Shown here one piece after another: positions 47,688-62,922 of a stretch of DNA of 64,000 nucleotides. The stretch lies in NCBI GenBank assembly GCA_029258725.1, contig JAPDKE010000025.1, positions 1 through 64,000 of the forward strand, in the 5' to 3' direction. Position 1 is the stretch's first letter. Each line of letters starts with the position of its first letter. This stretch comes from a bacterium. GTDB taxonomy: Bacteria; Hydrothermota; UBA3072; JAPDKE01. Under the pieces are notes generated by a model that saw nothing but the letters and a program-made list of their open reading frames with translations, ran no database searches and was not told the DNA's origin. Made by a program: the position numbers and the translations under genes.

Positions 47688-48334
47688 CCTTTCAGTGCCT
47701 TGAGGCTTCTGTATCTCACAACATCCATCCCATCCCTTTCAAGTGGAAGCCAGGCAGAAGAGGGAGCAAGAACAATAAAGGGAATGGAGGAAAGATAAAT
47801 GGACGAGAGTTCAGGATTGAGGTCCATTATCACCTTCTCAGGATGGGGAGGATATTCCTCCAGAATTTCCCTTATTTCAGGATTTTCAATAATAAAGTGC
47901 CTTTTTTCCTTTCTTTTTTTACTCCGATGGTAATGCACCGAAACCCCAAGAAGTCTGCCTATAAATGCAAGCATTGATGGAAAATCCTTTCCCCTTATTT
48001 CCAGATTATGATAAACTGAAGGAAACACTCCCATCCTGACGGGTGCTGGGGAAAGGATGGTTTCCGGTCCCAGATTTATAAAGACATCGTGTTCTGGAAG
48101 TTCCTCTTTTGGTTTGAAAACAACCATTCTTTCAAAAATTTTTTCATATATTCCCGCCTCCTCATCATTCACAACTCCTGTGCATGTATACTTTTTTTCA
48201 AGTTCTTTTATAAACGGTGGTAGAAAACCCGAAAGATAGGGTTCAGGGGGACGCACAAGAATATTCCCGGGAGGTGAAAGTGGAAACGTTATTCTCTCCC
48301 CTCTTTTCTTTATTCTGAATAAAAGCCCCTTCAC
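47660..48334 (-). CDS. Unknown protein, faintly GT9-like
   Basis: A 224-residue soluble protein not confidently recognised. The order GNILVRPPEPY (near 24), FLPPFIKELEKKYTC, VVNDEEAGIYEKIF, HDVFINLGPE and MGVFPSVYHNLEI faintly recalls ADP-heptose-type (GT9) glycosyltransferases, but the C-terminal donor site motifs are missing and the protein is about two thirds of normal GT9 length. It starts in 4-nt overlap with recR and its end lies inside the ABC exporter gene, so a role with that exporter is possible. Confidence 0.6.
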   Translation of the reverse strand: MKGLLFRIKKRGERITFPLSPPGNILVRPPEPYLSGFLPPFIKELEKKYTCTGVVNDEEAGIYEKIFERMVVFKPKEELPEHDVFINLGPETILSPAPVRMGVFPSVYHNLEIRGKDFPSMLAFIGRLLGVSVHYHRSKKRKEKRHFIIENPEIREILEEYPPHPEKVIMDLNPELSSIYLSSIPFIVLAPSSAWLPLERDGMDVVRYRSLKALKGWAREFLTS

Positions 48335-48909
48335 AGTTCCTTCCTCCCCTCAAGGGCCCTGGAGAGGGTGATACTGTCGGCAAGGTCTATGGAACTTCCA
48401 GGAGGCAATCCCCGTGCAATCCTTGTCACCTTAATCCCTTTCTCCTTCAGGCGATGCGTGAGGTAAATGGCGGTTGCCTCTCCCTCTGCTGTTGGATTTG
48501 TTGCTATTATCACCTCCTCCATGCCTTCAAGCCTCTCCATGAGTTCATCTATTCTCAAATCCTCAGGTCCTATTCCATCAACGGGAGATATAACCCCTCC
48601 AAGCACGTGATAGTATCCATGATAAACCCCTGTCTGTTCAATAACGGGAATGTCCATCGGGTCTTCCACCACGCATATTTTCTTCTCCCTCTTTTCATCC
48701 CTGCATATTTTACACGGGTCCTCCTCGGTTATTCCCCCGCACACCGAACAGAACCTCACCTTCTCCATTACCTCCTTTATTCCATTCGCAATCTTTTCTG
48801 CAAGTTCTCTCTTTTTGAGCAGGTAAAAAACTATCCTTCTTGCGGTTTTTTTACCTATGGAGGGAAGTGCCTCAAGCGATTCAATAAGTTTCTTAAAGGA
48901 TTCCGTCAA
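48331..48909 (-). CDS. recR: Recombination mediator RecR
   Basis: A 192-residue RecR: HhH motif LEALPSIGKKTARRI, four-Cys zinc finger CSVCGGITEEDPCKIC, Toprim domain with ICVVEDPMDIPVIEQTG and GVISPVDGIGPE, ATNPTAEGEATAIYL. Acts with RecFO to load RecA at gaps. TTG start: TTGA overlaps the dnaX stop, with GGGAGGTGG 7 nt upstream as ribosome site. The dnaX-recR pairing is a classic bacterial arrangement. Confidence 0.96.
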   Translation of the reverse strand: MTESFKKLIESLEALPSIGKKTARRIVFYLLKKRELAEKIANGIKEVMEKVRFCSVCGGITEEDPCKICRDEKREKKICVVEDPMDIPVIEQTGVYHGYYHVLGGVISPVDGIGPEDLRIDELMERLEGMEEVIIATNPTAEGEATAIYLTHRLKEKGIKVTRIARGLPPGSSIDLADSITLSRALEGRKEL

Positions 48910-50378
48910 TACACCACCTCCCCATCAAGTTCCTCTTTTATCATTTTCACAATCTCGTGCTCAACAAGGGGGACAAACTCCTTTCCCTCAACCACAAACT
49001 CCATCTTAACCTCCTTTCCGCATACCGCCCTGAGATGTTCCTCAAATTTCCTGGTAAAGGTCTCGTCCATTCCCAGCATGGTGAACTTTTCCTCCGTTAT
49101 CTTGACCCTGAGAACCCTGCCATCGTAGGAAATGGGATGGAGAGAAGAAAATATGTTCCTTGCAGCGGGTCTTTCATTTTTCTCTATTCTTTCCTTGAGC
49201 CTCTCCCATACCGAAAGAAGTGTATCCTCCTTTACTTCCTCCCGTATTTCCTCTTTTTTCTCCACCGGCTTTTCCATCCTTTGGGTTTTTTCTTTTGCAA
49301 TCAGTTCCTCTATCCTGGTTATTTCAGGATATCTTGCAAGTTTCATGAGTTCAACCTGAACAATGGCAGTTGTATATGGTACCTGTTTTAATCTTCTTTC
49401 CAGAGAAATCACCTGATTTAACATGTAAAGAATCTGGTCTTCATTCAGTCTTTCTGCTTTTGGCTTGAGCAGTTCATCCTCCTCAATCCCAAGGCGAACA
49501 TGGAGCAGTTTTTCAAAAAAGTCAATGAGCCCTCTTGTAACCTCCCCCCAGTCCACCCCTCTTCTTGAAAGTTCAGTAATCCTTTCTGCAATCTTTTTAT
49601 CATCCCTGTCAAGTATGGCATTGAGCATATCAAGATAAAACTTCTCATCCATTATCCCGAATACCTCTTTTATGTCCTTTTCCGTTATCTTTCCCCCGCA
49701 GTATGTGTTCAACTGGTCAAGCATTCCCTCAGCATCCCTTAAACTTCCATCCGCCCTTTTTGCAATGAGTTTCAGTGCATCGTCGTCTATTTCTATTTTT
49801 TCCTTTTCCTTTATCTCGTAAAGCTGGGTGAATATTTCATCGGTGGTGAGCCTTCTGAAGTCAAACCTCTGGCATCTTGAGAGGATGGTTGATGGAATGC
49901 GATGAGGTTCTGTGGTTGCGAAGATGAAAATAAGATAGGGAGGGGGTTCCTCAAGAATCTTCAAAAGGGCATTGAATGCCTCTTTGGTGAGCATGTGGAC
50001 CTCATCTATTATGTAAATTTTGTATCTTGTCCTTGCAGGGGGATAGAATGCATTTTCCCTCAACCCCCTTACTTCATCAATTCCCCTGTGGGATGCACCA
50101 TCTATTTCGGCAACATCAACGCTTCTTCCTTCCGTTATTTCCCTGCATATTGAGCATTCATTGCATGGTTCCTGTGAAATCCCATGCTCGCAGTTAACCG
50201 CCTTTGAGAGAATTCTTGCAACTGTTGTTTTCCCCACCCCCCTGGGTCCTGCGAATAGATAGGCGTGGGCAACCTTTTTATCCCTGAGGGCGTTTTTCAG
50301 GGTTCTTATAACGTGCTCCTGCCCTCTCACATCCTCAAATCTCTGTGGTCTGTATTTTCTTGCAAGAACGAGGTACAT
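48906..50378 (-). CDS. dnaX: DNA polymerase III subunit gamma/tau
   Basis: A 490-residue DnaX. LARKYRPQRFEDVRGQEHV opens the AAA+ module; GPRGVGKTTVARIL near 44; zinc-binding Cys cluster (NCEHGISQEPCNECSIC); IIDEVHMLTKEAFNALLKIL; ILSRCQRFDFRRLT sensor/arginine finger. The C-terminal third is helical and charged, as in tau. An A6-G stretch at 49254-49259 (minus strand) is not in the register needed for -1 frameshifting. Begins 19 nt after the SRP RNA with AAGGAGC as ribosome site and no promoter of its own visible. Confidence 0.96.
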   Translation of the reverse strand: MYLVLARKYRPQRFEDVRGQEHVIRTLKNALRDKKVAHAYLFAGPRGVGKTTVARILSKAVNCEHGISQEPCNECSICREITEGRSVDVAEIDGASHRGIDEVRGLRENAFYPPARTRYKIYIIDEVHMLTKEAFNALLKILEEPPPYLIFIFATTEPHRIPSTILSRCQRFDFRRLTTDEIFTQLYEIKEKEKIEIDDDALKLIAKRADGSLRDAEGMLDQLNTYCGGKITEKDIKEVFGIMDEKFYLDMLNAILDRDDKKIAERITELSRRGVDWGEVTRGLIDFFEKLLHVRLGIEEDELLKPKAERLNEDQILYMLNQVISLERRLKQVPYTTAIVQVELMKLARYPEITRIEELIAKEKTQRMEKPVEKKEEIREEVKEDTLLSVWERLKERIEKNERPAARNIFSSLHPISYDGRVLRVKITEEKFTMLGMDETFTRKFEEHLRAVCGKEVKMEFVVEGKEFVPLVEHEIVKMIKEELDGEVVY

Positions 50379-50789: not shown

Positions 50790-52178
50790 ATGGACAGGAA
50801 CAGAAAACTTTTCTTTATATCTCTTCCCTTTGTCTTTCTCATTTTTTTCTGTCTCAAAGATTTCCCCTTTTTACTCCTGGGGCTTTTCGCCCTGGGATTC
50901 ACCATACTCTGGGCAGCTGCAATTGCACGCCCCCCATTACTCTGGGCTCTTGTTGCTGCAATTTTTATTTCATTCCAGGCAGAGGTGAGTTCGGTAAAGC
51001 ATGAATTTATTCCAAGAATCCCCCATGAGGCAATGTTTTTGCTGGAATTGCTTCTCTTTATGAGTTTTTTACTATATCTTTATCGGGAAAGGGAAAGAAT
51101 CCAGGAAATCAAAAAAGAGGTATTCTCACATCGTGAATCCGCTCTCCTTTTCCTCTTTCTTCTTTTTGGGGTATGGGCAACCGCATGGGGGATGATGAGA
51201 GCCCATAAACTGGAAAGAATTCTGAGGGAGGCAGGTCATCTTGTAGGGTATATCTCTTTCTTTGTGATGATGCTTGCAGATAAAAAAGATCTTCCCATCT
51301 ACTGGTTCATCCTGCTTGGAGGGGTTCTGATTGCCGATGCAGAATATCTATACACTGCCTGCAAGTTAAGAAGCTATCTTTACCTCTGGGGAAGCAGAAT
51401 ATTCACAACCCAGATACAAATTTCCCTTCCTCTTTTTTCTCTGGGATACACTTTGTTTATATGGGGAAAAGGGAGAGAGAGATTGCTTGGAATAACCATG
51501 ATCTTTCTGTGTTTTCCCCTGGTTTTCCTTGGACAATCACGCGCACTCTGGATGTCCATGGGGGTTGCAGCTTTAGCCTCCACCATCCTGAGTTTCTTTG
51601 CAGAGGGAATTGAAAGAAAGAAAGGATGGCTCTTTATTCTTGGTTCTCTTATATTTATAGGAATAATAGTGTTCACCGGTCTTCATATGATAAGGGAAAG
51701 ACTGGGAGAGGAATTCTATCAGTCCATTGCCTTCCGCTTTGGGACTCTGAGGGAGATAGGCGCTGTTGGTTCATTCAAGGTGAGACTGGCAAATGTGCTT
51801 ACCTATTTCAGGCTTAAATTCAATCTCTGGTCCATCTTTCTCGGGTGGGGACTGGGAAACCCTATACAGCAAACCATACTCCTCATCACCCCCATATACT
51901 TTGTTGATACGTGGTACATAAACATACTCTGGAAGATGGGAGCACCCGCACTTGCAATTTTTCTTCTTTTTATCTTCCATGTGCTCAAAAAATTCCTTTA
52001 CTGGATGAAAACCGGAGAAAATACAGTATGGGCTCTTGGGTATGCAACCTTTATGGTGGTTCTCCTTTTTAATGGTTTTGCCACGGCATTGCTGAGCAGC
52101 AGACGGTGGATTCTCATATTTTCTGGAATTATAGGAATGGGATATGCATACTACCGTGAAAATAAATTTAGGCGATGA
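50790..52178 (+). CDS. O-antigen ligase/polymerase-like membrane protein
   Basis: A 462-residue protein with about 11-12 transmembrane segments and a longer periplasmic loop around residues 290-370 (REIGAVGSFKVRLANVLTYF, FLGWGLGNPIQQ), the layout and GWGLGN-type motif of the WaaL/Wzy O-antigen ligase family. The GQSRALWMSMG segment is also typical. Joins or polymerises lipid-linked glycans on the periplasmic face. It is far from the other polysaccharide genes and has its own leaderless-type promoter. Confidence 0.82.
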   Translation: MDRNRKLFFISLPFVFLIFFCLKDFPFLLLGLFALGFTILWAAAIARPPLLWALVAAIFISFQAEVSSVKHEFIPRIPHEAMFLLELLLFMSFLLYLYRERERIQEIKKEVFSHRESALLFLFLLFGVWATAWGMMRAHKLERILREAGHLVGYISFFVMMLADKKDLPIYWFILLGGVLIADAEYLYTACKLRSYLYLWGSRIFTTQIQISLPLFSLGYTLFIWGKGRERLLGITMIFLCFPLVFLGQSRALWMSMGVAALASTILSFFAEGIERKKGWLFILGSLIFIGIIVFTGLHMIRERLGEEFYQSIAFRFGTLREIGAVGSFKVRLANVLTYFRLKFNLWSIFLGWGLGNPIQQTILLITPIYFVDTWYINILWKMGAPALAIFLLFIFHVLKKFLYWMKTGENTVWALGYATFMVVLLFNGFATALLSSRRWILIFSGIIGMGYAYYRENKFRR

Positions 52179-52342
52179 ATCCTCCAAGATGCTGGAAGGA
52201 TATCCATATAATCAAATTTCAAAAGGCAGGCGCAAAAGCGGTTCTGTTTGAGATAGAAATCTTTTTAAACTGCATTCCCAGGAAATCCTGGAGTGAAAAA
52301 TCGGGGAGAGATAAAACTGCCCGGTGGTTTTTCAGGATGTAA
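52175..52342 (+). CDS. Small ORF coupled to O-antigen ligase gene
   Basis: 55 codons, ATG at 52175 in ATGA overlap with the stop of the upstream gene, running without a stop across the whole gap and 11 nt into the convergent nfi gene. The peptide is basic (MNPPRCWKDIHIIKFQKAGA at the start, WFFRM at the end), with no recognised motif or membrane segment. The coupled start and the filling of the gap are the only support; it could be a chance frame. Without it the 52179-52331 gap holds nothing recognised. Confidence 0.35.
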   Translation: MNPPRCWKDIHIIKFQKAGAKAVLFEIEIFLNCIPRKSWSEKSGRDKTARWFFRM

Positions 52343-52988
52343 AAATTTTTCTTTTCTTCCCTGCCTCAATATCCGCAAGCCTCAGAGGTTCGGGAATACG
52401 GTATTTTGAGGTTTTAAGAACAACTCTTCTTGAAGTTTCAAAGTCGATCCTGTGCCCCGGGGAAACAAAAACCGGTTTAACCCCATCCCGGGTCCTCACT
52501 GCCTCCCCCACCTTCTTCCCCTTATAAAAAACAGAACTCCATGAACCCCTTTCCTCTCCCGGTGGTTCATACTCACCAACAAGGAGATTTTTGGCACATC
52601 CTATAACCGGAACACCAAGAACAACCCCTGTATGGGAGGCAAGACCTGCACCCTCAGGATGCGCTATCCCGTGCCCATCTATAATAAGAACATCAGGCTT
52701 TACAAGAAGTTTCCTCCATGCAAGCAGGACAGGCTTTGCCTCCCTTAAAAAGAAAAATCCGGGAATGTACTGAAATTCTATCGGCGTCCTCACCCATACC
52801 TCCTCAACCACCTCTCCCTCCTTCATAACAACGCATACCCCATACGCATACTTCTCTCCAAATGCAACATCGCATCCCCCAATAAATTCTATTTTCCCGG
52901 TGTATGGAGCAATAATAACTCTCTTTCTTATACTTTCCTGTGCCCGCCTTATTCTTTCAGAAATTTTCCCCGAAAAGTCTCTCTCCAT
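52332..52988 (-). CDS. nfi: Endonuclease V
   Basis: A 218-residue Endo V: FIGGCDVAFGEKYAYG (catalytic Asp), IEFQYIPGFFFLREAKPVL (Glu), VLIIDGHGIAHPEGAGLASHTG (Asp), then VIGCAKNLLVGEYEPP and FVSPGHRIDFETS. All metal ligands are present. Cleaves DNA next to hypoxanthine and other deaminated bases (or inosine in RNA). Last gene of the hpf operon, starting 40 bp inside the GH3-like gene. Its presence there is probably positional. Confidence 0.95.
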   Translation of the reverse strand: MERDFSGKISERIRRAQESIRKRVIIAPYTGKIEFIGGCDVAFGEKYAYGVCVVMKEGEVVEEVWVRTPIEFQYIPGFFFLREAKPVLLAWRKLLVKPDVLIIDGHGIAHPEGAGLASHTGVVLGVPVIGCAKNLLVGEYEPPGEERGSWSSVFYKGKKVGEAVRTRDGVKPVFVSPGHRIDFETSRRVVLKTSKYRIPEPLRLADIEAGKKRKIFTS

Positions 52989-54502
52989 CCCTTCTCCTTT
53001 TCAAGAACCAGGGGCTTGATGTCTCCAAGTTTTTTACCCGATTTCACCTTTCTTTGAATGTATCTCTCCATTCCTCCCTTTTCTATAAGAAAGACCCTCA
53101 GAGGAGCAAGTTGACCGAGTTTTCTTGCATACCGATAGTGATAGTTTTCAGAAAGTTTTCGCTCAAGAAAATCCACAAAGCCCTGTGGAATATTGTCCGT
53201 CTCAATGAAAAGTGTGTAGAAGAGTTTTCCTTTATCTTCATCAGGGGCAAGGAAGTAAAAGGAGGAGGAAATGGAGAATTTATCAAGTGCCTCCTTTATA
53301 CTTTTCTCCACATGAAATGCATTGAGTTTCTCTCCCACCATGTCACATACCATCTCCTTTTCAACAAACTCCAGCATGGGAACACCTTTATAAAATCCCG
53401 TAACCTCAACCACATCTCCAAGCATGTACCTGTAAAGCCCTCCTCCGGTGGTTATAATCACTGAATACTTCTCTCCCTCCCTGAGTTCCCATGCAAAGTA
53501 ACTTTCACCGTTCTTTAAAAACTCAAAAAAGTGGGAATTGATTGAAAGAACATATCCATCCCTCCATGGAAATGTTACAAACCCCTCGGTGGCTATAAGT
53601 CCCTTTCCCTGTATCTCAACGCCCGGGAAAACTCTCTTTAATTCCGGCAGGAATCTGGATGCCCATCCCTGGGTCCAGCAACTTATAAGGGAGAGTCTTT
53701 TCCATATGAGGTCATATCTTTCCCTCTCCAGACACCTTTCCACCCACCTGGCTCTATCAGGCGAAAATTTCCGGAGTTCACTTAAAAGTTTTTCCCGGTA
53801 TTTCTTTATTCTCTCCAGCAGGAGAAGTAAAAACGATGGACTCCATACCGAAATGAGAACCAGGTTTTCCTCACGGAGGAGATAAAAAGCCGTGAGATAT
53901 AAAGCCTCCTCCAGATTGCGTGAAAGAATTGTTGAAGATGGAACAGCAAGGGTGGGTGAAATAAAGAATTTTCCAGCGTTACCGAGATAGGAGATATCCT
54001 CCCTGAATCCAACCGGTACCCTGCATCGCTTTTCATATCCTGAAAGAGGCGTTATCGCCCAGTATGACTTTCCTGCAAGCAGGCCGGGTCTTTTTGTATA
54101 GAGGGTATATATCCACGGAGAAATTCCAGAGAGGAATTCACGGTGGAGGGAAGGGGTATATGGAATGAGTTTTGATGGAGCAGTGCTCCCTCCTGTGGGT
54201 TCAAGCAAAAGAACCTTCTCCCGCGTAAGAACCTGCTTTTCCCCCCTGCATATTTTTTCTATGTAGGGAGCGTAAAATTTGTATGAGGTTAGAGGGACCT
54301 TTTTTCTGTAATCCTCCGGGCTGTTTATCTTCTCAAATCCGAACAGCCTTCCTATCTCGGTATCCCGGTTTCTTTTAATTATCCTTAAAAGGATGGATGT
54401 CTGGGTCTTTTTTAAATCCTCGCATCCCCTGAGAAACCTGAGATAGGAAGGATAGCAGGATAAAACCCAGAGAGAATTGCATGCAAAAACCACACCCTTC
54501 AT
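52949..54502 (-). CDS. GH3-family acyl-acid amido synthetase
   Basis: A 517-residue ANL-superfamily protein of the GH3 type known from plant auxin conjugation. ATP-binding P-loop region LLEPTGGSTAPSKLIPYT at ~95-112, IATEGFVTFPWRDGYVLS, VIITTGGGLYRYMLGDVVEVTG and a C-terminal KSIKEALDKF region. GH3 enzymes adenylate a carboxylic acid and pass it to an amine, usually an amino acid; bacterial homologues are mostly uncharacterised. It is bounded by a GNAT gene (4-nt overlap) and nfi. The pairing with two GNATs and three radical SAM genes suggests a small-molecule or lipid pathway. Confidence 0.85.
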   Translation of the reverse strand: MKGVVFACNSLWVLSCYPSYLRFLRGCEDLKKTQTSILLRIIKRNRDTEIGRLFGFEKINSPEDYRKKVPLTSYKFYAPYIEKICRGEKQVLTREKVLLLEPTGGSTAPSKLIPYTPSLHREFLSGISPWIYTLYTKRPGLLAGKSYWAITPLSGYEKRCRVPVGFREDISYLGNAGKFFISPTLAVPSSTILSRNLEEALYLTAFYLLREENLVLISVWSPSFLLLLLERIKKYREKLLSELRKFSPDRARWVERCLERERYDLIWKRLSLISCWTQGWASRFLPELKRVFPGVEIQGKGLIATEGFVTFPWRDGYVLSINSHFFEFLKNGESYFAWELREGEKYSVIITTGGGLYRYMLGDVVEVTGFYKGVPMLEFVEKEMVCDMVGEKLNAFHVEKSIKEALDKFSISSSFYFLAPDEDKGKLFYTLFIETDNIPQGFVDFLERKLSENYHYRYARKLGQLAPLRVFLIEKGGMERYIQRKVKSGKKLGDIKPLVLEKEKGWRETFRGKFLKE

Positions 54503-55182
54503 TCCACCATCCTTTTTCCGTACCGGGTGAGATTCTCCCGGGAGACCCTTGCAATACAGGCGAGTTCTTCCCCTTCGGTATAATACGGATTTTTCTCAAG
54601 GAAAAACCTCACGTGAGGGTCCCGTCTCACCCTCTCACTCACCCCCCTCCATTTTTCCTTCAATCTCTCCTTTCTTCTTTTTATAACCCCTGTTTCATCG
54701 TCGTATTCGGCAGGAAAAAGCATCTCTCCCATGATCCGGATGAGTTTCCTTTCAAAAGGGGGAGTGGGAGCATCATACCTGGGGTAGAACTCATTGAAGA
54801 AAAGGGGAAGGAGTCTATAGGTCCGGTATCCCATGGATATGAGAAACCAGTAAAGGGGAATATCTTCTTCCATCAGTGGACGGATAAAACCTCCAAACGT
54901 CCTGAAGAGGGCGAGTTCCTGCCAGTGTTCTCTTTCCACAATCGTATCCCCTGAATATATTACCCTTACATCCTTTCCATCCACATTTACGTGATAGAGG
55001 GCAATGGTTGTGAATCCATGGAGTTCTCCTGCCTCTTCAATCAAGATAACATACTCCTTTTTCTCAAGGTCTCTGGTGAAATTCTCAAGGGTGGTATTTT
55101 CAAAATACTCACAGAAGATCCCGAACATCCTTTTTATATCCCTTTCATCCAGTTCCTGGACCTTTACAATCCTTCCCTTCAT
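54499..55182 (-). CDS. GNAT-like acyltransferase (second of pair)
   Basis: A 227-residue protein with a GNAT-like N-terminal half (ERDIKRMFGIFCEYFENTTLE, VILIEEAGELHGFTTIALY, GDTIVEREHWQELALFRTFGGFI). WFLISMGYRTYRLLPLFFNEFYPR is a distinctive conserved stretch. The pantetheine-binding Q/RxxGxG/A loop is not obvious, so acetyl-CoA use is uncertain. ATG 55182 follows the previous gene in ATGA overlap; the longer frame from 55236 is not needed. Placed between another GNAT and the GH3 enzyme. Confidence 0.62.
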   Translation of the reverse strand: MKGRIVKVQELDERDIKRMFGIFCEYFENTTLENFTRDLEKKEYVILIEEAGELHGFTTIALYHVNVDGKDVRVIYSGDTIVEREHWQELALFRTFGGFIRPLMEEDIPLYWFLISMGYRTYRLLPLFFNEFYPRYDAPTPPFERKLIRIMGEMLFPAEYDDETGVIKRRKERLKEKWRGVSERVRRDPHVRFFLEKNPYYTEGEELACIARVSRENLTRYGKRMVE

Positions 55183-56252
55183 AGTATTGCCACCTCCGGA
55201 TAGGGAATTCCCTTTTTTATTTCGGGTCTTTCCCATGCAACCATATAAAGTTTTGCAGGGTATATTTCCTTTCTCAGCCCTTTCAGGACCCGCAGCAATG
55301 GATCATCGGGGGAAAATGCAATGACAAAGTAGGAGTATTTTCCCACAGCATCGTTGTGGAGTCTGGAAAGAAGAGAATAGAATACCCGTGGGTCATCCTC
55401 ATCCACTGCTGGAAAACAGGCATAGAAAAAATTGAGCACGGAACCAGGTGGAGGAAGCACAGGATAACCTGTAATTTTTGCAAACGTATTGTATAACGGT
55501 CTTATACCCCTCATCCATCCTCTGTATCCCTCTATCCTGAACTGCCTGAAATCTCTCTGATCCCATTTTCCAAGGACTCCAGCCACCTTCCCACTCTTTA
55601 TGGCGACATAAAAGTTATCCGGGGAAAGACCGTATAAAAGAGGAGTGCCAAAATCTTCGGGAGTATAATAGGGATAGAATTCTCTCCTTTTCCCGTTTCT
55701 CTGAATGCATAGCACAATATCATCCAGCATGTTCTCACTGCCTCTCACAACCTCCACATCTCCCTCCTTTATTCTTTTTTTGAGAAAGACCGCATGGGTT
55801 ATGTAACTTCCATATTCAAAGAATTCAGGAAGAATTCCTTTTCCCTTTACCATTCTGTAGGCATAACTGTTCCCCTCAATGAGACTTACAAGGTAAAAAG
55901 GGACGGGATCTTTTTCGTGCAGTTTTTTAAGAAAAAGAAGCCCTTTAAAAAATGCCGGGCTTCCGCGATACTCCCTTCTCACCCTCAGTGTGCTCAGGTA
56001 TCCTATCTCTCTCACCTCACCATTTAACCACACCTTTCTCTTTGCCCTGGTGATGGTCCCTGCTATCTTTTTATTTTCCTTATCCTCCGCAACCAGCACC
56101 TGAACAGAGTATCCCTCAATAAATGCGCCCCGGAAGAAGGTGGGTCTCCTCGCATAAACCATCTCAATCCCACCCTCAAGGGACACCTCCTCCACTATTT
56201 CCATGAGTTCTTCATCATCCCTTTCCGTGGCAGGTCTTATCTCTATCTCCAT
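55179..56252 (-). CDS. GNAT-family acyltransferase (first of pair)
   Basis: A 357-residue protein. N-terminal GNAT domain ~1-130: IEIRPATERDDEELMEIVEE, VQVLVAEDKENKKIAGTI, and motif A YLSTLRVRREYRGSPAFFKGL. The C-terminal half contains a second GNAT-like unit (NFYVAIKSGKVAGVLGKWDQ, VGKYSYFVIAFSPDDPLLR), so a tandem GNAT fold is likely. Substrate unknown. Overlaps the third radical SAM gene by 10 bp and the second GNAT gene by 4. Confidence 0.75.
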   Translation of the reverse strand: MEIEIRPATERDDEELMEIVEEVSLEGGIEMVYARRPTFFRGAFIEGYSVQVLVAEDKENKKIAGTITRAKRKVWLNGEVREIGYLSTLRVRREYRGSPAFFKGLLFLKKLHEKDPVPFYLVSLIEGNSYAYRMVKGKGILPEFFEYGSYITHAVFLKKRIKEGDVEVVRGSENMLDDIVLCIQRNGKRREFYPYYTPEDFGTPLLYGLSPDNFYVAIKSGKVAGVLGKWDQRDFRQFRIEGYRGWMRGIRPLYNTFAKITGYPVLPPPGSVLNFFYACFPAVDEDDPRVFYSLLSRLHNDAVGKYSYFVIAFSPDDPLLRVLKGLRKEIYPAKLYMVAWERPEIKKGIPYPEVAIL

Positions 56253-57511
56253 CCTCTCCTCACATCAAAGGCTGCAAGCATGTTGATAACAATACCCGTA
56301 AAAACCGCAAACGTGTCCTGAGTGCGCGCAATCTCCAGAATTCTCCTTATAATGGAAGGAAGCGAATACATCCTCTCCCTTGCGCATCTGCATAGTCTTT
56401 CCAGTTCCTCTCTTCCCATTCTTTCAGGTTCAAAAAATACCCTTCCAGGAAAGGCGTTCCTTTTCAGCCACCATTTTTCATGAACCCTCCTTTCCTTCCT
56501 CAATTTTTCATACACCGGGGTTCCTGGATAGGGTATAAGCACATTGAATCCAACAACTGCAACCGGAAACCTTTCAAGCAATTTCATGGTCTCCTTTACT
56601 GTCTCCACCGTATCATCACCATATCCAAATATAAACGATGCAAATACCGGAATTCTCATCTCCCTCAATCTTGCAAGGTAATACTCCACCTCCTTCCTTA
56701 TCCATCCTTTCCCCATCTCTCTCCTTGAGAGGGAACTTACTGATTCAAACCCCACAAGAACCCCAAGACATCCGCTCCTTTTCAGGAGCAAAAGAAACTC
56801 CCTATCGTCAAGCATTCTCACGTCCACCTGTGCAAGCCATCTCTTCTTTAAGGGAATTATTCTTTCAAGCAAATTTTTTGCATGTTCAGGACTGGAAGTG
56901 AAGTTATCATCCGTAAAAAGAATTATTTTTCTTTTTATTCTTTTCAACTCCTCCACCACCTCCTCCACAGGTCTCTCCTTTCTCTGGGGATAGAGTTTCC
57001 AGGTGCAGCAGAAATTGCATCGGTACCTGCATCCCCTTCCTGTCTCAACAAGAGATACCGGAAGGTATGACTTCCCGCGGAAGATGCTTCTGTCAGGAAA
57101 TATTCCCGAAAGGTCGTTAACAGGCTTTCTGTAAATTCCTTTTAGCCTTCCGCGTGCTGCATCCTCTACAACCTCCCTCCATACTCCCTCTGCCTCACCA
57201 ATAACCACCCCATCTGCATGTTCAAGCGCCTCCTCAGGCACAAGGGTGGGATGTGCTCCCCCCATAACCACTTTCTTTCCTCTTCTTCTGAATTCATCCG
57301 CAAGTTCATAAGCCCTTCCTGCACTGAAGGTATCCACAGAAAAGGCTATGAGGTCCCCATCATCAAAAGAAACCCTTTCTATACGATCATCATAAAACGC
57401 AATCTCCACATGAGGAGGGGTAAGGGATTTAAGAACGGCAATGGAAAGAGGTTCAATGGTCCAGGATGTCTTTTTCCCGGTAAGAGAAGGCTTTATAAAA
57501 ACAACCTTCAT
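56243..57511 (-). CDS. B12-binding-domain radical SAM enzyme (third of three)
   Basis: A 422-residue enzyme. N-terminal cobalamin-binding-type domain (MKVVFIKPSL start, VVMGGAHPTLVPEEALEHAD, GVVIGEAEGVW), then a radical SAM core with VETGRGCRYRCNFC at ~155 (CxxxCxxC for the 4Fe-4S cluster), ILFTDDNF, LVGFESVSSLSRREM, FIFGYGDDTVETVKET and IPYPGTPVYEKLRKE. C-terminal helical tail with AFPGRVFFEPERMG. Paralogue of the next two genes, with ATGA-type overlap. Class B-like methylation or another radical rearrangement is possible; substrate unknown. Confidence 0.9.
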   Translation of the reverse strand: MKVVFIKPSLTGKKTSWTIEPLSIAVLKSLTPPHVEIAFYDDRIERVSFDDGDLIAFSVDTFSAGRAYELADEFRRRGKKVVMGGAHPTLVPEEALEHADGVVIGEAEGVWREVVEDAARGRLKGIYRKPVNDLSGIFPDRSIFRGKSYLPVSLVETGRGCRYRCNFCCTWKLYPQRKERPVEEVVEELKRIKRKIILFTDDNFTSSPEHAKNLLERIIPLKKRWLAQVDVRMLDDREFLLLLKRSGCLGVLVGFESVSSLSRREMGKGWIRKEVEYYLARLREMRIPVFASFIFGYGDDTVETVKETMKLLERFPVAVVGFNVLIPYPGTPVYEKLRKERRVHEKWWLKRNAFPGRVFFEPERMGREELERLCRCARERMYSLPSIIRRILEIARTQDTFAVFTGIVINMLAAFDVRRGWR

Positions 57512-58845
57512 TTTTTCCCTGTATCCAGGTTCTTACCAAGCGGGAGTCCCTGCCTTCTCTCAAATTCCTTTTTTCCAAAAAGATTCTGGGTGAGGAAGAG
57601 GAATCCCATGAAGGGATTTTTAAACACCTCCGGATTCCCGAGAAATCTCCGGAGTATCCCGGAGGAGGAGAAGAAAACCCTTCTTGCATAATAGCATCCC
57701 TCTCTCAATTCCTCAGGGGATAACCTCCAGGGTTTGAATGCAACATCCCCAAATCTGTAACCATCATCAAGCCACCATTTTCGGTATATAAGTCTTCCCT
57801 CCTTTTCAAGCATTGAGTAAAGAGGGGTTCCGGGGAAAGGAACAAGATGATTGAAGGCAGCAATGAGGAATCTTTCCCTGAGTGCAAAATCCAGTGTTCT
57901 TTTTATTGTATCCATATCATCGTGAGGATATCCAAAAACAAAGGTTGCGTAAATAAATATCCCGCTTGAATGTATCCTTTTAATAAGTTCATGGTAGTCA
58001 CCAAGACTCATATTCCATCGTTTGTTCATCGCCTCAAGATTCTCTGGATTGAGCGATTCAAACCCTATGAGCAACACCTTGCATCCACTTTTTGCAAGCA
58101 CATCCAGAAGTTTTGGAAACTTTGCCACGAGTACCGTTGCCTGCGCAGCCCATCTTATTTTCAGGGGAATGAGCTCCCCTGCCAGTTTCTCCAGCCATGC
58201 GGGTTCAACTGCAAGGTTATCGTCCACAAAAAACACATTCTTCGCTCCTGACCGTTCAATCTCCTCCACCACCTTTTTTATATCCTTTTTTCTCCTTGTT
58301 CTTTCATAAAAAACAGAAACAGAACAGAAGTTGCACGCAAACCTGCATCCTCTTCCCGTCTCAACCAGGGTAATGGGGAGGTATTTTCTTTTCCCATTTA
58401 TGGACCTGTCCGGGAACACACCCTCCATTGGAAGTCTCTTTCCACGATAAACCTTTCTGAGTCTTTTTTTCCTTGCATCCTCAATTATCCTTTCCCATAC
58501 CCCTTCAGCCTCCCCTATCAATATCGCATCTGCATATTCCTTTGCCTCGGATGGAACAAGTGTGGGATGATATCCTCCCAGAATAACGGGTATTCCTCTC
58601 TTCCTGAACTCCGATGCTATGAAATATGCCCTCTTTGCAGTATACGTCTCAACAGTTATTGCAACAAGGTCCGTTTTTGTATCATAGTCAATATGTTCTA
58701 TCCTGTCATCAAAAAATTCCTTCTCAACATCAGGAGGGGTAAGAGAGGAGAGGGTCTGAATGTTAAGGGGCTCCATCTTCCAGGAGTCCACATAGGTATC
58801 GTTTTCCTTCTTGCCCACAGCGGGAAGGATGAAGGTAACCTTCAT
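57508..58845 (-). CDS. B12-binding-domain radical SAM enzyme (second of three)
   Basis: A 445-residue enzyme: cobalamin-type domain (VILGGYHPTLVPSEAKEYAD), radical SAM core with VETGRGCRFACNFC at ~161, VFFVDDNLAVEPAWLEKL, LIGFESLNPENLEAMNKRW, FVFGYPHDDMDTIKRT and VPFPGTPLYSMLEKEGR. ATG 58845 lies in ATGA overlap with the first radical SAM gene and matches the family N-terminus MKVTFILPAVG; the frame open to 58974 is only that gene in another frame. Closest in layout to the third copy. Confidence 0.9.
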   Translation of the reverse strand: MKVTFILPAVGKKENDTYVDSWKMEPLNIQTLSSLTPPDVEKEFFDDRIEHIDYDTKTDLVAITVETYTAKRAYFIASEFRKRGIPVILGGYHPTLVPSEAKEYADAILIGEAEGVWERIIEDARKKRLRKVYRGKRLPMEGVFPDRSINGKRKYLPITLVETGRGCRFACNFCSVSVFYERTRRKKDIKKVVEEIERSGAKNVFFVDDNLAVEPAWLEKLAGELIPLKIRWAAQATVLVAKFPKLLDVLAKSGCKVLLIGFESLNPENLEAMNKRWNMSLGDYHELIKRIHSSGIFIYATFVFGYPHDDMDTIKRTLDFALRERFLIAAFNHLVPFPGTPLYSMLEKEGRLIYRKWWLDDGYRFGDVAFKPWRLSPEELREGCYYARRVFFSSSGILRRFLGNPEVFKNPFMGFLFLTQNLFGKKEFERRQGLPLGKNLDTGKK

Positions 58846-60140
58846 CTCACATACTTTGGAAGATTCGTTGCGTATATCCGGTATGCAATGTTGAGTGGAA
58901 GAGAAAGTGAAAGGAGTGTTCTTGAGCCCGATAGCCTCTTCCAGATGGATGGAACGCCATAGGAATGCTTCCATAACCAGAGCAACCCTTCCTGCAATTT
59001 CTCCGGAGACATGTTCTTTGGGCGGAAAACCACATGCTGTCCATCATAGAGGCTCCAGTCCCGGGTTAATATTCTTCCCTCTCTTTCAAGTTCTTTATAA
59101 GCAGGTGTCCCGGGAAATGGTGTATAAACCGAATATCTTGGCAGGTCTATGTGTATCCTGTTTACAAACTCAAGCGTCCTCTCGAAAACATCAGGGGTAT
59201 CGGTATCAAATCCCAGAACGAACGTCCCCATAACTCCTATACCCTGGTCGTGGAGTTTCTTCATTATTTCTCCATAACGTCCAACCACGCTGAATTCCTT
59301 ACATGCCTCATTGAGAGAAAGCTGGGAAACGGACTCAAACCCTATAAGCAATCCCCTGCATCCGCTTTTCACCATGAGAGAAAACACCTCAGGATCATCG
59401 GTAACCTCGGTGGTTGCAAGACCAAGCCAGAGTTTCTTGAGGGGGATAAGTTCACGGAAAAACTTTTTCGCATATTCCCTATCCCCTATTGGATTGGGAT
59501 CAAGGAAGACAACCTCCTTTCCCTCAAGTTTCTCTATCTCCTCTATCACCTCCCTTACCGGTCTGTAATATGTTCTCCTTCCCCATGCAACAGGAACAAC
59601 ACAGAACTTGCAGTGATGGGGACACCCTCTTGTAACCTGGACAGTGTTTATGGTTGCGTATTTTTCTTTTTTGAGAAGGTCTCTCCTGGGAACAGGGACA
59701 TGCTTTATTTCGGTTGATGCTCTTGCAACGTAGATTTTTTTGAGTTTTCCTGTAACAAAATCCCTCAGAACCTGTGGCCATGTGAGTTCACCAAACCCCA
59801 CAACCACTGCATCAGCATGCTGAGAGGCTTCATGAGGCATAAGGGTGGGATGAACCCCACCCAGAACCACAGTTATTCCTTTTTCTCTCAGCCTGTCTGC
59901 TATACGATATGCACGGATACTGGTTCCGGTTATGATGCTTATCCCGACAATATCCGCATCTATGTCCTCGGGTATTTCCTCCACACCCTCATCGTATATT
60001 TCTATTTCTGCCTCTATTTCTGGAGGAACAAGGGCTGCAAGGGTCGTGAGGGTAAGGGGAGCATATCTGAGGGCTTTCTTAAAAGTTCCCTTTCTGTAAC
60101 GGTATATATCACCCCCTGGAAGTAAAAGAGCAATCTTCAT
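58842..60140 (-). CDS. B12-binding-domain radical SAM enzyme (first of three)
   Basis: A 432-residue enzyme: MKIALLLPGGDIYRY, ADIVGISIITGTSIRAYRIA, VVLGGVHPTLMPHEASQHAD (cobalamin-type domain), radical SAM VTRGCPHHCKFC at ~167, VVFLDPNPIGDREY, LIGFESVSQLSLNEACKEF, FVLGFDTDTPDVFERTLEF, TPFPGTPAYKELEREGR. More divergent than the other two. Start ATG 60140 is 1 nt after the dapA stop. Family known for methylating or rearranging unactivated carbons in lipids, hopanoids and natural products. Confidence 0.9.
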   Translation of the reverse strand: MKIALLLPGGDIYRYRKGTFKKALRYAPLTLTTLAALVPPEIEAEIEIYDEGVEEIPEDIDADIVGISIITGTSIRAYRIADRLREKGITVVLGGVHPTLMPHEASQHADAVVVGFGELTWPQVLRDFVTGKLKKIYVARASTEIKHVPVPRRDLLKKEKYATINTVQVTRGCPHHCKFCVVPVAWGRRTYYRPVREVIEEIEKLEGKEVVFLDPNPIGDREYAKKFFRELIPLKKLWLGLATTEVTDDPEVFSLMVKSGCRGLLIGFESVSQLSLNEACKEFSVVGRYGEIMKKLHDQGIGVMGTFVLGFDTDTPDVFERTLEFVNRIHIDLPRYSVYTPFPGTPAYKELEREGRILTRDWSLYDGQHVVFRPKNMSPEKLQEGLLWLWKHSYGVPSIWKRLSGSRTLLSLSLPLNIAYRIYATNLPKYVR

Positions 60141-60141
60141 C

Positions 60142-61008
60142 TCAGAGAAGCCCAAAATCCTTGAGTGCCTTTTTCAGTTTCTCCCTGTTTTCCTCCCTCA
60201 TCGGGCAGAGAGGAGGTCTTAGAGGACCCATATCATAACCGAGCATTGAAAGTGCAGTTTTTACGGGTATTGGATTTGTCTCAATGAACATTGCCTTTGA
60301 GAGGTAGTAAAGCCTTTCATGGAGTTTCCTTGCCTCTTCATACCTGCCTGAGAGGGCAAGTTTGCAGAGTTCAGCAACCTCTTTCGGGGCTATGTTTGCG
60401 GTAACGGATATCACCCCCTTCCCTCCTATGGATATAATGGGAAGGGTGAGCATGTCATCCCCTGAAAGCAAAACAAAATCGGAAGGGGTCATGGATATGA
60501 TCTCGGTCATCTGGAGGAGATTTCCGCTTGCCTCTTTTATTCCAACGATGTTCTTGAATTCTGAAAGCCTTGCAACGGTTTCAGGAAGGATGTTAACCCC
60601 TGTTCTTCCAGGAACGTTGTAGATTATTATCGGGGTGGATACCTCCTCTGCAACCGCTTTGAAGTGCCGGTACAATCCCTCCTGGGTTGGCTTGTTGTAG
60701 TAGGGGGTTATCACCAGCAGATAATCCATCCCGAAACTCTCCGCCTCCTTTGCAAGTTTTATCGTCTTTTCTGTTGAATTCGTTCCTGCCCCTGCAATAA
60801 CCGGGATTTTCAGGTGCTCCTTTGCCAGTTCCATCATTCTCTTTCTTTCATTCTCCCTTATATTCGGTGACTCTCCTGTTGTACCGAAAATTAAAACCGC
60901 GGATGTCCCTGAGTGATTGTGGAGTTCAAAAAGTTCTATTAAGGTTTTTTCATTTACACCATCATCGGTGAATGGGGTTGATAAGGCAACTATGGAGCCT
61001 TCAAGCAT
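60142..61008 (-). CDS. dapA: 4-hydroxy-tetrahydrodipicolinate synthase
   Basis: A 288-residue DapA: STPFTDDGVNEKTL, LIFGTTGESPNI (pyruvate carboxyl and Thr pair), VITPYYNKPTQEGLYRHF, IIIYNVPGRTGVNI with the catalytic Tyr, VGIKEASGNLLQM with the Schiff-base Lys, LLSGDDMLTLP, GVISVTANIAPKEV. Condenses pyruvate and aspartate semialdehyde in lysine/meso-diaminopimelate synthesis. Sits between hprK (9-nt gap) and the radical SAM genes. Confidence 0.95.
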   Translation of the reverse strand: MLEGSIVALSTPFTDDGVNEKTLIELFELHNHSGTSAVLIFGTTGESPNIRENERKRMMELAKEHLKIPVIAGAGTNSTEKTIKLAKEAESFGMDYLLVITPYYNKPTQEGLYRHFKAVAEEVSTPIIIYNVPGRTGVNILPETVARLSEFKNIVGIKEASGNLLQMTEIISMTPSDFVLLSGDDMLTLPIISIGGKGVISVTANIAPKEVAELCKLALSGRYEEARKLHERLYYLSKAMFIETNPIPVKTALSMLGYDMGPLRPPLCPMREENREKLKKALKDFGLL

Positions 61009-62343: not shown

Positions 62344-62922
62344 TTACTCCTCCCCCATCTTCTTCAGTGCATCGAGCAACAGAGACAACTTGCGATTGAG
62401 GCTGTCAATTTTTTCCTTTATCTCCCTCACCTCTTCACGTGATGGAATTTCCATCTCTTCAATCACTTCCTTTATCACAGACCTAATCTCCTCTCTCAGC
62501 ACCTTTCTTGATTCCTCTATCCTTTTGGTTATGGTTTCAAAAATCCTCTCCCCCTCCTCACGTGTTATTCTTCCCTTTTTCACATGCTCATCTATGAGTT
62601 CCCTTACCCTCTCCCCTGTAAGTGCGATGGCATCCACTGCAAGCAGCATTGACTTCTCCACAAACTCCTTTACCCTTTCTCTTCCCTTCTTTATCAATTC
62701 CGAGAGCAAAAGCTTTGCAGACCCCGCACCTATCGCCCCTCTCTCCTGTTCCATTATTATCTGGGCAAGAGTAAGGGGTGTTATGTCCTCCCCGGTTTCA
62801 TGATCGACCACCTTCACCTCCTCCCCACGGGATATAAGTTCGGCAATCCCCCTCAGAGTTATGGGTTTTGAGGTTGTGGTATCATACATCCGGCGGTTGG
62901 AGTACTTCTTTATTATCCTCAT
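62344..62922 (-). CDS. PHA-synthesis-regulator-like DNA-binding protein
   Basis: A 192-residue protein. The first ~60 residues match the PHB/PHA accumulation regulator DNA-binding domain (IIKKYSNRRMYDTTTSKPIT, RGEEVKVVDHETGEDITP, TLAQIIMEQE). The rest is a long helical, phasin-like coiled-coil segment. In PHA-making bacteria this family represses phasin genes; here no PHA synthase is seen, and distant homologues occur in bacteria without PHA, so the target is open. Start overlaps the PhoU gene by 4 nt. Confidence 0.85.
   Translation of the reverse strand: MRIIKKYSNRRMYDTTTSKPITLRGIAELISRGEEVKVVDHETGEDITPLTLAQIIMEQERGAIGAGSAKLLLSELIKKGRERVKEFVEKSMLLAVDAIALTGERVRELIDEHVKKGRITREEGERIFETITKRIEESRKVLREEIRSVIKEVIEEMEIPSREEVREIKEKIDSLNRKLSLLLDALKKMGEE

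Follow-up and report, generated by a model that had tools for sequence, protein, structure and literature searches.

A widespread gene cluster for a putative amide-linked lipid, combining a GH3-type synthetase, two GNAT acyltransferases and cobalamin-binding radical SAM enzymes, in a Hydrothermota contig

A 64,000-nt stretch of a contig from a bacterium of the Hydrothermota (JAPDKE010000025.1, positions 1–64,000, assembly GCA_029258725.1; hereafter the window) holds one representative of a biosynthetic gene cluster that is both widespread and sporadic in its distribution. Six packed genes in the window encode three cobalamin (B12)-binding radical S-adenosylmethionine (SAM) enzymes (rSAM1, rSAM2 and rSAM3), two acyltransferases of the GCN5-related N-acetyltransferase (GNAT) type (GNAT1 and GNAT2) and a GH3-type synthetase (GH3). 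The core of the cluster across genomes consists of GH3, GNAT1, GNAT2 and radical SAM enzymes of two groups, A and B, whose linkage goes far beyond chance. The initial annotation had proposed that these genes form an undescribed pathway to an acylated or amidated, radically modified lipid or small molecule; their conserved linkage in distant genomes supports such a pathway, and we infer that its product is most likely (probability about 0.58) an N-acylated, amide-linked lipid with radically modified chains.

A query consisting of a GH3 alignment retrieved 174 relatives among genome contigs (a single-sequence query found none), and the 80 best-matching loci were retained. GH3, GNAT1, GNAT2 and at least two of these radical SAM enzymes occurred together in 67 of the 80, the remainder being mostly short or cut contigs; the set includes one contig counted twice and, again, the two WOR-3 loci described below. 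The loci are distributed over at least 12 phyla, including Planctomycetota, Verrucomicrobiota, Chloroflexota, Acidobacteriota, Bacillota, Pseudomonadota, Thermodesulfobacteriota, Nitrospirota, Elusimicrobiota, Spirochaetota, Myxococcota and Deinococcota, a spread taken from public record names that belong mostly to metagenome-assembled genomes, some of them maybe mis-binned (for example L017, Nanoarchaeota, and L016, Nealsonbacteria). Closer to the window, the WOR-3 genome G004 has rSAM1, rSAM2, GNAT1, GNAT2 and GH3 in the same order and lacks rSAM3, and a second WOR-3 genome, G031, has GNAT1, GNAT2, GH3 and two radical SAM genes in a different order at a contig edge.

Since the loci found with GH3 form a GH3 clade, GNAT2 was used as a second, independent query, and its results were concordant. 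It matched 14 of 149 Planctomycetota genomes; among the regions inspected from 11 of these, the operon was present in five, four of them with both A and B radical SAM genes; the fifth (L126) lacks A, and its contig ends close by. Another region (L129:7288–12619) contains genes for a Rieske protein, GNAT2, GH3, GNAT1 and a fatty acid desaturase, with no A or B radical SAM gene nearby, and no strong group B match was obtained in that genome. Rieske genes also accompany GH3 plus GNAT2 in L128 and GNAT2 in L132; the three further contigs were too short for a decision. GNAT2 was rare elsewhere: among 150 genomes from the class to which the Anaerolineales locus L030 belongs, 2 matched, and among 196 from that of the Ruminococcaceae locus L072, 4 did, with one weak match. 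Likewise, few genomes in the phylum of the window carried GH3 of this type (6 of 147), two of these matches being partial or weak. Genes that travel together would show correlated distances, and the distance matrices of the core proteins did correlate (Spearman 0.38–0.73); the value for GH3 and GNAT2 was 0.61, versus a maximum of 0.15 in shuffled matrices, which were computed for this pair only.

All three radical SAM proteins from the window matched PF04055 and the B12-binding domain in Pfam, the latter slightly below the cut-off in rSAM2 (28.9 versus 32.1 bits), and, as initially annotated, their motifs are intact: the CxxxCxxC clusters read CPHHCKFC, CRFACNFC and CRYRCNFC, and the GGxHPT motifs GGVHPT, GGYHPT and GGAHPT, in rSAM1, rSAM2 and rSAM3, respectively. 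Their pairwise identity is 34–42%. In a tree of 94 radical SAM sequences, clade A, which contains rSAM1, was split from all others with an SH-aLRT support of 100, and group B contained rSAM2, which also matched the group B profile with 713 bits in a search of its own genome. Of the 74 loci with radical SAM genes, 65 carried A, 71 carried B and 62 carried both; clade A and group B are the usual radical SAM core of the cluster. The third paralog, placed on the same side of the tree as rSAM2, clustered solely with copies from L005 and L063 (support 98) and is therefore considered a lineage-specific extra. The initial view of the three paralogs as a set is corrected accordingly, as rSAM1 and rSAM2 alone fall into conserved core clades.

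Two further radical SAM groups, C and D, co-occurred in 27 of the 28 loci carrying either one when all open reading frames were considered, and in 24 of 28 once overlapping frames were removed. A membrane protein of around 220–256 aa without Pfam match, memX, was found only in loci with group D (L026, L039, L059, L066, L076 and L084), five of the six also having C. Mutual exclusion between groups C/D and the oxygen-dependent module was unsupported, since L030, L045, L057 and L091 carry both.

Sequence searches of the PDB gave weak GNAT matches for GNAT1 and no match for GNAT2, and the folds were therefore needed to classify them. GNAT1, which had no Pfam match at the default threshold, yielded an AlphaFold2 model with a pLDDT of 94.4 and a GNAT fold confirmed by Foldseek. 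Its top PDB matches were eukaryotic N-myristoyltransferases (NMT; TMq 0.57–0.65, E about 1e-12, over ca. 380–440 alignment columns), with Eis-like proteins ranking behind them (TMq 0.44–0.50). From this model, GNAT1 would be a bacterial NMT-type protein with two GNAT domains, NMT-like over its whole length; no NMT sequence domain appeared among the Pfam families matched by the 54 members. A structure search had already noted NMT-type folds in bacteria, cautioning that activity should not be assumed from them (PMC12219266).

The C-terminus of the GNAT1 family is fixed: 71 of 75 homologs end exactly in Leu, E-x-x-x-L forms the last five residues of 68 of the 75, and none of 59 aligned homologs had a tail past the terminal Leu. 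The ends of the other core proteins are ragged, with median tails of 9 (GNAT2), 6 (GH3), 24 (A) and 12 (B) residues. Human NMT1 uses the carboxylate of its C-terminal Gln496 as catalytic base (PMC7048800), and its C-terminus projects past the last strand (PMC12219266), as do the final 18 residues in the GNAT1 model. Human NMT1 shortened by two residues retained its kcat when a substitute base was present, and its affinity for the peptide was lost (PMC7048800). A comparable role of the carboxylate of the C-terminal Leu357 of GNAT1 as putative catalytic base would explain its fixed terminal Leu. The predicted NMT-like fold of GNAT1, together with the fixed Leu C-terminus of its family, is what appears to be new here.

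GNAT2 has a match to Acetyltransf_9 below the Pfam threshold, and its AlphaFold2 model (pLDDT 95.9) shows a GNAT fold near Eis/AAC(2') in Foldseek; its homologs keep an S-G-[DN]-T motif in their conserved columns. The folds thus bear out the annotation of two GNATs, and the annotation of GH3 was equally sound: its N, M and C domains (PF03321, PF23571 and PF23572) all exceed the Pfam cut-offs and its nucleotide-binding motifs (TGGSTAPSK, ATEG and GLYRYMLGD) are intact. Loose patterns of these three motifs were present in 69, 79 and 72 of 80 homologs, respectively, and the best PDB match of the family profile was JAR1 (4epl, E 2.5e-37). GH3 is thus predicted to be an ATP-dependent, amide-forming synthetase. 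A search of 30 carrier genomes with PF03321 found a single GH3 above the cut-off in nearly all of them, and a second one in G172.

The genes surrounding the core in other loci include several of lipid type. The recurrent neighbors over 77 loci were fatty acid desaturases (16 loci) and PAP2, SnoaL, Rieske and DUF4345 proteins (11 loci each). Radical SAM enzymes of types X1/X2, closest to tetraether synthase among solved structures, are encoded in seven loci. In L018, from the Nitrospirota, a gene for an Aas-type acyl-ACP--phospholipid O-acyltransferase (1337 bits, cut-off 1221) lies 3 nt upstream of the A radical SAM gene; L015 has CTP_transf_1, PlsC-type and CDP-alcohol transferase genes, L023 an FA_hydroxylase gene, and in L058 (L058:222–1991) a FeeM-like GNAT fused to a pyridoxal phosphate-type aminotransferase is encoded directly upstream of the A radical SAM gene.

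We favor a lipid over a small molecule, both of which the initial annotation had considered, because of the fold of GNAT1 and these neighboring genes. The lipid reading is based on the end-to-end similarity of the GNAT1 model to NMT, the fixed C-terminus, the intact GH3 motifs and the lipid-type neighbors, as well as on the precedent of OlsH, a bacterial GH3 that forms N-acyl ornithine (PMC12493201). Several observations weigh against it. Beyond the desaturase/Rieske/PAP2 module, each lipid-type neighbor is present in few loci, and the counts have no background rate; the operon in the window itself contains no lipid enzyme, and most clostridial loci have no lipid-type neighbor among the families tracked. 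Radical steps are not strictly required, given that L129 has GH3 and both GNATs with no A or B gene nearby. Finally, the GNAT, GH3 and B12-radical SAM families also work in non-lipid pathways.

For the pathway we infer the following substrates, order of steps and radical chemistry. GNAT1 would transfer a long acyl chain from coenzyme A or acyl carrier protein to an amine, with the carboxylate at its own C-terminus serving as the base. GH3 would convert a carboxylate, that of a fatty acid or the one at the acid end of the N-acyl product, to acyl-AMP and join it to an amino acid or amine in a second amide, and GNAT2 might add a further acyl group or load a substrate. The A and B radical SAM enzymes (rSAM1 and rSAM2) would work as a pair and modify unactivated carbons, in the chain or in the head, through C-methylation, oxidation or the formation of C-C bonds, and rSAM3 could contribute one additional, lineage-specific step. 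As a wider proposal, to which we give somewhat less than an even chance, the cluster would make bacterial amide lipids of a class not yet described, scattered over at least 12 phyla, built by GH3 and an NMT-type enzyme with its C-terminus as base and tailored by B12-radical SAM pairs (A plus B, optionally C plus D), with oxygen-dependent desaturases and Rieske proteins partly substituting for them in some aerobes.

Alternatively, the cluster might yield an amide natural product that is soluble, either a secondary metabolite or a signal, rather than a membrane lipid. The patchy spread of GH3 and GNAT2 gives the cluster the look of an accessory pathway, the fold of GNAT2 is closest to antibiotic acetyltransferases and several relatives of the B12-radical SAM enzymes produce natural products; however, GNAT1 is closest to myristoyl, not acetyl, transferases, and the desaturase, PAP2, Aas-type, CTP_transf_1 and PlsC-type neighbors are at odds with a soluble product, which we consider unlikely, at roughly one chance in four. 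A pathway to ornithine lipids like that of OlsH, in which the GNATs replace OlsI, is considerably less probable. GH3 belongs to the same family as OlsH, the product of OlsH is an N-acyl amide and 52 of 54 GH3 homologs matched the OlsH model (NF052613, lyso-ornithine lipid synthetase), but membership was rejected for the window protein, with 43.1 bits versus a cut-off of 620 and with GLYRYMLGD, a plant-like sequence, as motif III versus GMWSHLIGD in OlsH. Additionally, OlsH works with the alpha/beta-hydrolase OlsI, whose type was not found with Pfam among the six operon genes, and an alpha/beta-hydrolase is only occasional elsewhere (7 of 77 loci have a member of one such family close to the core); neither radical SAM enzymes nor GNATs are mentioned for OlsH/OlsI (PMC12493201).

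The enzymes could instead modify a ribosomal peptide or a protein, in the manner of ribosomally synthesized and post-translationally modified peptides or of protein lipidation. Tandem GNATs lipidate lanthipeptides (PMC13060382), NMT acylates proteins and some B12-radical SAM enzymes modify peptides; nevertheless, the six window genes overlap, leaving no space for a precursor gene between them (open reading frames of at least 80 aa were covered across loci), and the chemistry known of GH3 enzymes concerns small acids and amino acids, making this improbable, even more so than the ornithine-lipid pathway. Last, the genes might be unrelated neighbors in a long operon starting upstream at phoU/hpf/hprK, given that they are on the same strand and downstream of dapA, hprK and hpf. 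This explanation, whose probability we regard as negligible, is refuted by the conserved linkage: the core moves as a unit in other phyla, and in L004 and L018 dapA, hprK and hpf are not alongside it. The N-acylated, amide-linked lipid remains our preferred product.

The arrangement of the genes agrees with the tight packing originally described (Table 1). The six genes run on the minus strand from 60140 down to 52949, with overlaps of 10 nt between rSAM3 and GNAT1 and of 4 nt at each of the other four junctions. The interval first delimited as the cluster (52332–60140) contains a seventh gene, for endonuclease V, that had gone unmentioned. Neither L004 nor L005 showed an endonuclease V homolog next to the cluster, and the enzyme was rejected as a pathway member; likewise, dapA and the endonuclease V gene were absent from the cluster regions inspected in the two WOR-3 genomes. 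The genes dapA, hprK, hpf and that for endonuclease V are bystanders, outside the cluster. The placement behind hpf and hprK had been read as a hint of expression linked to energy state or stationary phase; the link to energy state is not supported, as L004 and L018 do not preserve the hpf/hprK/dapA surroundings.

Table 1. Genes of the cluster and flanking genes in the window.
Gene	Coordinates	Strand	Assignment	Pfam matches and remarks
rSAM1	58842–60140	-	B12-binding radical SAM enzyme, clade A (core)	PF04055, E 1.3e-20; PF02310, E 1.8e-12
rSAM2	57508–58845	-	B12-binding radical SAM enzyme, group B (core)	PF04055, E 1.5e-18; PF02310 below cut-off
rSAM3	56243–57511	-	B12-binding radical SAM enzyme, lineage-specific extra	PF04055, E 1.8e-22; PF02310, E 1e-11
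GNAT1	55179–56252	-	Predicted double-GNAT acyltransferase of N-myristoyltransferase type (core)	C-terminus E-x-x-x-L-COOH
GNAT2	54499–55182	-	Single-domain GNAT acyltransferase (core)	Conserved S-G-[DN]-T motif
GH3	52949–54502	-	Predicted GH3-type ATP-dependent acyl amide synthetase (core)	PF03321, E 9.6e-40; GH3_M; GH3_C
Endonuclease V	52332–52988	-	Endonuclease V	PF04493, E 8e-62; 40-nt overlap with the GH3 gene
dapA	60142–61008	-	dapA	1 nt upstream of rSAM1; preceded by hprK and hpf on the same strand

Other features of the surroundings are recorded here as side observations. The protein adjoining hpf (62344–62922) has PhaR/phasin-like NCBIfam matches. Between the endonuclease V gene and dnaX, on the plus strand (50790–52178), is a gene for a mostly hydrophobic, membrane-like protein of 462 aa with no Pfam or NCBIfam match. 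Downstream of the cluster, the window (48331–50378) and L018 (L018:11751–14590) both have dnaX and recR, with a YbaB-like gene between the two in L018; this may be a coincidence.

A conserved five-gene core over many phyla, with no named product in the literature searched, points to an undescribed chemical of many mostly uncultured bacteria. In agreement with the initial claim that no named system is known to have this set, no description of it was found in full-text searches aimed at it in the open-access literature, a scope that makes this weak evidence of novelty. If the product is a lipid, it could be a new class of membrane lipids relevant to biomarker work. The cluster would also provide a functional setting for bacterial proteins with the NMT fold, and the C-terminus of GNAT1 is a clean test case for the carboxylate-base mechanism. 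At least one of the loci, L068, is from a named strain, Anaerotalea alkaliphila F-3ap, and not from a metagenome bin, so lipidomics may be feasible.

Among known systems, rSAM1, rSAM2 and rSAM3 have the B12-binding region as well as the radical SAM core in common with the BchE/HpnJ/rSAM_ladder_B12 group (TIGR02026, TIGR03471 and TIGR04072), their best NCBIfam matches at 90–100 bits; membership among BchE, HpnJ or ladderane-type enzymes was rejected, as equivalog cut-offs are 360–578 bits. Tetraether synthase (Tes, 7TOL), a known system considered together with bacterial Mss, is the closest solved structure for accessory radical SAM enzymes from some other loci and from the genome of the window, which score 54–112 bits, far below the Tes model cut-off of 450. 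No Tes/Mss member is encoded in the window operon, and Tes/Mss was rejected as the core function. In that genome, contig C12 carries a second, unlinked locus (L143:3501–9485) with a paralog of the A radical SAM enzyme (488 bits), adjoining a Tes-like radical SAM gene (7TOL, E 5.9e-25), another radical SAM gene and one for an HpnN-like RND transporter.

The plant GH3s JAR1 and GH3.12 have the same three-domain architecture and nucleotide motifs as the window GH3, although they conjugate plant hormones, whereas the window protein is encoded in a bacterial operon with acyltransferases and radical SAM enzymes. The OlsH/OlsI system of Singulisphaera acidiphila (PMC12493201) resembles the cluster in that a bacterial GH3-like enzyme joins an acid and an amine at the expense of ATP in a lipid context; it differs in its alpha/beta-hydrolase partner, and the window GH3 differs in its far lower score and its plant-like motif III. 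Lastly, GNAT1 differs from NMT in its low identity (around 11%) and in being encoded by a bacterial gene within a biosynthetic operon, but its model shares the double GNAT fold of NMT, matched over the full length, and its family has a fixed C-terminal residue, as a C-terminal carboxylate base would lead one to expect.

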